From Caldicellulosiruptor hydrothermalis 108 (GTDB lineage: Bacteria; Bacillota; Thermoanaerobacteria; Caldicellulosiruptorales; Caldicellulosiruptoraceae): 64,000 nt of DNA. Of this stretch, positions 10,956 to 15,641 are shown in pieces. The position numbers were made by a program, and so were the translations under genes. The notes below the pieces were generated by a model. That model made no database searches and was not told the origin of the DNA. It was given only the letters and a program-made list of their open reading frames with translations. Where the stretch lies: positions 186,001 through 250,000 of the forward strand of contig NC_014652.1 of NCBI RefSeq assembly GCF_000166355.1. Direction: 5' to 3'. Each line of letters starts with the position of its first letter. Positions within the stretch are counted from its first letter, which is position 1.

Positions 10956-11477
10956 TTAGTTCTTTAGACCCTTCAAAAAAGCTATATCTTGCATATTCTT
11001 TCCACAAACAGATTCAATTACAACCATGTCTTTTTCAAGCCTTGTTATCTTCTCAGAGTTTTCTTCGGTCTTAACAAAAAGCAGCTGATGTTCTTCTTTG
11101 TTTTTTGATATCTCAGAAGAAAGCAGACCTTCAATTCGTGCAAGCTGATGAGTAAAATTGTCATGTTCTGCCTTGTTTACCTGTGCTAAGTGCTCTAAGG
11201 CTTTTAGAATCTGAGTGTTTTCTGCAACCTGCAATTCTAACCTTTCAACTCTTGCCTCAAGTGCATCCATTCTTTTTTCAAGGCTTTCAACCCTTCTTTC
11301 GAGACTTTCAACTCTCCTTTCGAGACTCTCAACTCTCTTTTCGAGGCTTTCAACTCTCTTTTCGAGACTTTCAACTCTCTTTTCGAGGCTTTCGAGCCTC
11401 TTTTCAAGCCTGTCAACCTTTTGGTCAAGCACAGTGACCTTTTCCAGTATTAATTCCAGTATTTCCCTATCACTCAT
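10956..11477 (-). CDS. Heptad-repeat coiled-coil protein
   Basis: 173 residues, no membrane segment. Residues 24-72 are seven near-identical heptads of the form LEKRVES, ideal for a long parallel coiled coil. A second, less regular coiled-coil stretch follows (RVERLELQVAENTQILKAL, then KITRLEKDMVVIES). A good AAGGAG site precedes the ATG. Similar small proteins are scattered in Clostridia without known function. It appears monocistronic, with its own terminator. A scaffold or multimerisation role is a guess. Confidence 0.75.
   Translation of the reverse strand: MSDREILELILEKVTVLDQKVDRLEKRLESLEKRVESLEKRVESLEKRVESLERRVESLERRVESLEKRMDALEARVERLELQVAENTQILKALEHLAQVNKAEHDNFTHQLARIEGLLSSEISKNKEEHQLLFVKTEENSEKITRLEKDMVVIESVCGKNMQDIAFLKGLKN
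11262..11408. repeat. Tandem 21-bp repeats encoding LEKRVES heptads
   Basis: Seven consecutive 21-bp units inside the coiled-coil gene, differing mainly at a few positions (for example GAG versus AGA variants in the Arg/Lys codons). Uninterrupted tandem units with no spacers. Confidence 0.85.
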
Positions 11478-12555: not shown

Positions 12556-12615
12556 TTTGACATCCCTTTCTTTTGTTATGTTTCTTAATAAGAATACTAC
12601 TATCAAATAAAAAAT

Positions 12616-12650
12616 GTCAAGCAAAGACCAGCATTTTGGTCTTTGCCTGA
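12616..12650 (-). terminator. Terminator of the P-type ATPase gene
   Basis: A stem built from GCAAAGACC (12621-12629) and GGTCTTTGC (12638-12646), extended by flanking GTCA/TGAC, followed on the minus strand by a T-rich tract. Confidence 0.88.
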
Positions 12651-15424: not shown

Positions 15425-15463
15425 GACTTTTAACATGTGACGGTGAATCACATGTTAAAAGTC
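15425..15463 (-). terminator. Riboswitch-controlled terminator
   Basis: A 15-bp perfect stem (15425-15439 with 15449-15463) around a nine-base loop, followed on the minus strand by six T residues. Its 5' arm includes the 3' strand of the aptamer P1 helix, so the two structures exclude each other. Confidence 0.88.
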
Positions 15464-15565
15464 TCGCACACCCTATTTTGGGCCCTCATCCCCAGAGAAA
15501 GGTCTTTTAAAATACCTTTCTCGCGAATGTTGAGGACAAGGCTTTTGGTGCTACTCCCTTTTAAC
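15454..15565 (-). promoter_or_regulatory. yybP-ykoY (Mn2+) riboswitch aptamer
   Basis: Read on the minus strand, it begins GTTAAAAGGGAGTAGC and ends GCGAGACTTTTAAC, giving an 8-bp P1 (GTTAAAAG/CTTTTAAC) enclosing the conserved GGGAGTAG and GCRAGAC elements of this family. Inside are TCCTCAACATTCGCGAG and a strong GAGAAAGG/CCTTTCTC hairpin, which compare well with the L. lactis example as I remember it. Folding of P1 would block the downstream terminator, so ligand should switch the ATPase gene on. Family assignment is by eye. Confidence 0.8.
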
Positions 15566-15612
15566 AAAGAGCAGAACCTATTTTTTGTTTTTCGCTAAGG
15601 AAGCTATTTATT

Positions 15613-15641
15613 ATTTTACAGTAAAACCAAACTCTTTTCAA
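15613..15641 (-). promoter_or_regulatory. Promoter of the riboswitch/ATPase transcript
   Basis: Minus strand TTGAAA (15636-15641) and TAAAAT (15613-15618) with a 17-base spacer, about 40 bases upstream of the aptamer. Confidence 0.75.

Follow-up and report, generated by a model that had tools for sequence, protein, structure and literature searches.

The minus-strand leader of a P-type ATPase gene in Caldicellulosiruptor hydrothermalis 108 is, at a probability of about 0.87, a yybP-ykoY Mn2+ riboswitch (15565-15454) coupled to a terminator (15465-15423), so that Mn2+ turns on transcription of the gene for a Mn2+-exporting ATPase. Coordinates refer to the window, the whole stretch of 64,000 nucleotides that was analysed. 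The leader occurs throughout the genus and, as a riboswitch of the Mn2+ type, controls the P-type ATPase by antitermination; the current Rfam model misses it, but it is otherwise an unremarkable representative of a known family. We infer three parts of this reading: that the RNA binds Mn2+, that the switch works in the ON direction in living cells, and that the pump moves Mn2+.

Leader architecture and proposed switching

The outermost stem of the aptamer, P1.1, pairs GTTAAAAG with CTTTTAAC in eight perfect pairs that can be read directly from the sequence (Table 1). As the preliminary description had it, the two motifs of the family lie inside this 8-bp stem (15565-15558 with 15461-15454): GGGAGTAG begins at the last base of the P1.1 5' strand, and GCGAGAC (15467-15461) runs into the 3' strand. 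The clean upstream promoter that it described is also there, and the TTGAAA-17-TAnAAT pattern is preserved, by eye, in 12 of the 13 orthologous leaders (the exception is L123). The terminator stem, given earlier as 15 bp, is longer at 18-19 bp by both the terminator scan and RNAfold, and the hairpin is conserved in all 14 leaders compared. Because the 3' strand of P1.1 sits in the 5' arm of the terminator, the aptamer and terminator folds are mutually exclusive. This agrees with the dual use of the strand claimed before and supports an antitermination layout at the P-type ATPase.

Table 1. Positions of the leader elements and downstream genes in the window
Feature	Positions	Strand	Basis or remark
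Sigma-70-type promoter, TTGAAA-N17-TAAAAT	15641-15613	minus	promoter scan, 10/12 matches
Candidate 5' strand CTGCTCTTT, able to pair with AGGGAGTAG (15559-15551)	15574-15566	minus	folds
P1.1 5' strand, GTTAAAAG	15565-15558	minus	sequence, fold, R1
L1 5' side, GGGAGTAG, invariant in the yybP-ykoY family	15558-15551	minus	
P3.1, 9-nt L3 AACATTCGC (15531-15523) and P3.2 arm	15541-15484	minus	
P4 hairpin, GCCC-AAAATA-GGGT	15483-15470	minus	fold
P1.2 3' strand GTGC and L1 3' side GAGA, to the first base of the P1.1 3' strand	15469-15461	minus	
P1.1 3' strand, CTTTTAAC, shared with the terminator 5' arm (switch)	15461-15454	minus	sequence, RNAfold
Intrinsic terminator hairpin, 18-19 bp, then T tract to about 15415	15465-15423	minus	terminator scan, RNAfold
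P-type IIA ATPase, 887 aa	15328-12665	minus	annotated Ca2+ pump
CaCA-family (PF01699) antiporter	12624-11548	minus	second gene, behind the ATPase; start perhaps ATG 12555

The aptamer folded in isolation (-40.6 kcal/mol) has P1.1 closed and continues through an internal loop into P1.2, a long P3 arm that is itself interrupted by an internal loop, and P4; the P2 stem, part of the four-way junction of solved structures, is absent from this fold. The leader as a whole is far more stable than its shuffles (z -9.2, 0 of 200 as stable), a value for which the terminator accounts in large part. None of the transcript lengths tried with RNAfold, whose energies leave out tertiary contacts and metal, gives a minimum-energy fold that contains P1.1, a point against the switch. 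In Lactococcus lactis, Mn2+ stabilises P1.1, the 3' segment of which otherwise joins the terminator (PMC11087558). By this precedent, Mn2+ should keep P1.1 of the window leader closed and let the ATPase gene be transcribed. In the proposed mechanism, CTTTTAAC would enter the terminator hairpin when Mn2+ is scarce, and transcription would end before the ATPase gene. Mn2+ binding between L1 and L3, with a contact to N7 of A15528, would dock the two arms and hold P1.1 closed; the terminator would then be blocked, the ATPase made and Mn2+ exported.

The proposed arrangement is that known from Lactococcus yoaB and Streptococcus mgtA. Published accounts describe for the L. lactis yoaB riboswitch the same core motifs, the same competition between P1.1 and an intrinsic terminator, the Mn2+ ON logic predicted here and a P-type ATPase as the controlled gene (PMC11087558, PMC11477304). 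Unlike yoaB, the window aptamer has no P2, a 9-nt L3 and a possible 5' anti-aptamer hairpin. Mn2+ riboswitches are also reported to precede the cation P-type ATPases mgtA (Mn2+/Ca2+) of Streptococcus pneumoniae and CD2503 of Clostridioides difficile (PMC9331361, PMC11477304), a likeness in arrangement to systems of other lineages.

The possible hairpin involves a candidate strand immediately 5' of P1.1. In folds at 37 C of transcripts too short to include the terminator, 15574-15566 pairs with 15559-15551 at about 6 kcal/mol better than P1.1; at 70 C the margin over P1.1 is 1.3, with a different fold. All 12 leaders of the genus carry such a 5' complement to L1 (P 0-0.03 against mononucleotide shuffles). 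It is absent from the sister-genus leader (G012) and from a paralog in the same genome (L135), and reaches P<0.05 in just 2 of 40 other family members. When the upstream stretch is widened and dinucleotides are shuffled, four leaders show a strong complement (P 0.0003-0.005) and a fifth reaches 0.014, while P is only 0.08-0.16 in the window's own leader (L111), L115 and L117. In an anti-aptamer hairpin the strand may mask the aptamer's 5' side, a lead that we noticed only after seeing the fold.

Family membership and the reach of RF00080

The preliminary description had predicted a match to the Rfam yybP-ykoY model, RF00080, and had named its absence as grounds for refutation. Formally, that absence is what was found: RF00080 matched nowhere in the window at its gathering score and, at E<=10, neither in stretches of 401 and 136 nt nor in the whole genome. 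The other Rfam families gave only weak matches to unrelated hairpins at the gathering score and at E<=10. A tRNA search found none, a BLAST of the leader against plasmids returned nothing, and a literature search for a yybP-ykoY riboswitch in Caldicellulosiruptor brought up nothing relevant.

We examined family membership with an independent covariance model (R1), built from an alignment (A1) of 29 RF00080-detected members, none of them from Caldicellulosiruptor or its sister genus. The topology of A1 was set by hand and then checked by pair counts: 20 of the 24 pairs change on both sides and 90.1% of the cells are paired, a level that none of 500 shuffles attained. R1 matches the window at exactly 15565-15454 on the minus strand, over its full length (model positions 1-101 of 101) with 43.0 bits and an E value of 1.8e-9; the next-best matches in the window score 10.7 and 10.6 bits. 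The leader is the sole R1 match in the 2.77-Mb genome, and the R1 matches listed at E<=0.1 across 41 genomes all score at least 42 bits. We also searched 80 ATPase loci from public genomes, chosen only for encoding a relative of the window ATPase. All 36 R1 matches there are in sense orientation, and 28 of them stop no more than 350 nt short of the gene, so the matches are not random. Three of these loci (L001, L050 and L057) have two tandem R1 matches upstream of the ATPase.

The window sequence satisfies every invariant column of A1: GGGAGTAG, the C that closes P3.1, the CA of L3 and AGAC. The L1 pair of motifs, GGGAGTAG and GAGAC, lies within P1.1 and P1.2, and L3 with its invariant adenosine (C..CA after P3.1) is present as CTCAACAT, the adenosine being A15528. 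Crystal structures show that Mn2+ is contacted by N7 of an adenosine that is invariant in L3 (A41 of L. lactis, A48 of Xanthomonas oryzae) and that an L1 adenosine (A10, L. lactis numbering) crosses to P3.1 (PMC6754395). By alignment, A15528 would be the equivalent of the Mn2+-contacting adenosine and A15555 that of the cross-helix A10. Every departure of the leader from the standard form recurs in members that RF00080 does detect. The A-U pair of P1.1 adjoining L1 is found in L179 and L191, and CCTCAACAT...TGGGG around L3 in L144. The form without P2 recurs in L144, L168 and L187; P2 is hence not defining.

Furthermore, all 13 genomes of the two genera (its own, 11 others of the genus and the sister-genus genome G012) retain the leader, always before the same ATPase. 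G012 additionally carries the diverged paralogous riboswitch L135 (R1, 36.2 bits). The 12 distinct sequences of clade and paralog have 99.7% of cells paired and seven pairs in which both partners change, where shuffles give 0.7; this covariation is owed mostly to the paralog, and the alignment used (A3) was fitted to the model and so leans towards structure. Covariation upholds P1.1, P3.1 and P3.2 both in clade plus paralog and in the family, with P4 left uncounted. In one genome (G003; L117/L224) the riboswitch is intact and the ATPase frame is broken, in pieces with internal TAA and TGA codons.

The family assignment of the preliminary description is thus borne out by the R1 match, the invariant core and linkage to the ATPase in 35 of 41 relatives, and the missing RF00080 match reflects the detection limit or threshold of the model, not a biological feature. 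None of 18 other ATPase-linked loci passes the RF00080 gathering score, which makes the absence of a match a poor basis for refutation. RF00080 has a match above its cut-off in just 7 of 299 genomes of the phylum, and it gives many family members 20-45 bits although their core motifs are complete. The leader shares the invariant core and topology of RF00080 (Manganese), and the model is blind to this clade and to the ATPase-linked loci tried. Since the curated threshold overlooks Mn2+ riboswitches before such ATPases, current counts probably underestimate both the yybP-ykoY riboswitch and its regulon.

Alternative readings of the leader

Could the leader be a structured attenuator that answers a protein, RNA polymerase pausing or temperature, with a superficial yybP-ykoY likeness? 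The lack of an Rfam match and the strong, unconditional terminator of the minimum-energy fold would suit such a device, which we nevertheless regard as very improbable given the E value of R1 across the full model length, the invariant L1 and L3 motifs and the conserved linkage to metal transporters. Somewhat less improbable, though still unlikely, is a genuine yybP-ykoY fold that a 9-nt L3 and the loss of P2 have retuned to another divalent ion (e.g., Ca2+, Co2+ or Cd2+), in keeping with the Ca2+ annotation of the pump. Of 90 distinct aptamers, 71 have an L3 of 8 nt; the loop has 9 nt in all 12 distinct aptamers of the clade and in one other ATPase-linked aptamer (L220). The extra base is located 3' of the Mn2+-contacting adenosine, and the longer loop could alter the metal site. 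A review expects yybP variants of altered ion specificity (PMC7266159), and the pump exceeds the cut-off of a SERCA-type Ca2+ ATPase model. Weighing against a change of ion, none of the 14 leaders departs from the Mn2+-contacting adenosine or from GGGAGTAG of L1, and the paralog in the sister genus lies ahead of an antiporter of the CaCA family, in which a Mn2+ exporter under yybP-ykoY control has been proven (PMC8546581). Loop length also drifts by itself, as five ATPase-linked aptamers from Clostridia (L001-L005) have a 7-nt L3 (e.g., AACAACC).

A broader proposal would set these leaders apart as a three-strand subclass, invisible to Rfam, in which the 5' strand masks L1, P2 is lost and the 9-nt L3 retunes metal affinity or choice. 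We consider it doubtful, if less so than a plain change of ion, and prefer to read the leader as an ordinary Mn2+ riboswitch.

The ATPase and other linked genes

The ATPase matches the Pfam cation-ATPase families and scores 732.6 with the NCBIfam SERCA-type Ca2+ model (cut-off 703.4), consistent with the earlier remark that its sequence would usually be annotated as a Ca2+ pump. It has the ion-site motifs of TM4-TM6 (IPEGL, N..E and N..TD). Among pumps of solved structure, Listeria LMCA1 and human SPCA1 come closest to it; LMCA1, the closest bacterial one, is a Ca2+ pump, which counts against the Mn2+ reading. Linkage to the riboswitch points the other way and makes the ATPase a likely Mn2+/Ca2+ exporter. 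In the 35 of 41 related genomes with an R1 match upstream of the ATPase, none lies upstream of the second ATPase paralog. In a tree, 29 of the 31 riboswitch-linked ATPases form one clade together with three unlinked ones, and the linked L228 and L229 fall elsewhere; the second ATPase of the window's own genome belongs to an unlinked clade. We strongly infer that Mn2+ is both the ion sensed and the ion exported, which assigns a likely Mn2+ role, genus-wide, to a pump annotated as a Ca2+ ATPase.

A comparison of riboswitch-linked and unlinked ATPases found no residues that separate Mn2+ from Ca2+ pumps. The TM6 residue after the Asp, which is S, T or A in riboswitch-linked ATPases and G in the main unlinked clade, was considered as a Mn2+ marker and rejected: it follows the tree, and the Ca2+ pump LMCA1 also has S.

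The CaCA antiporter, which follows the ATPase after some 40-110 nt and lacks its own riboswitch, is a second candidate Mn2+ exporter in the same regulon. Its G012 ortholog stands behind the paralogous riboswitch L135, and RF00080 or R1 matches precede CaCA (PF01699) antiporters in several families (L135, L162, L185, L251, L261, L263, L265-L267, L270 and L272). Bordetella pertussis BP3410 is a proven CaCA Mn2+ exporter behind a yybP-ykoY riboswitch (PMC8546581). In the sister genus an antiporter of this type belongs to the corresponding regulon through L135; unlike BP3410, the window antiporter is the second gene, behind the ATPase and past a possible terminator. This element, at about 12600-12650 on the minus strand, is a 10-bp hairpin followed by TTGACATTTTTT, and the antiporter may therefore have its own promoter or be only partially co-transcribed.

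Genes found behind R1 or RF00080 matches elsewhere include GDT1/UPF0016, TerC, CaCA antiporters and OAD beta. The last, the beta subunit of a Na+-transporting oxaloacetate decarboxylase (PF03977), is an odd partner for a Mn2+ switch and follows ten of the yybP-ykoY RNAs of related genomes (L164, L221, L227 and L232-L238). Next after the window antiporter (10956-11477, minus strand) is a gene for a 173-aa coiled-coil protein with ESLEKRV-type heptad repeats.
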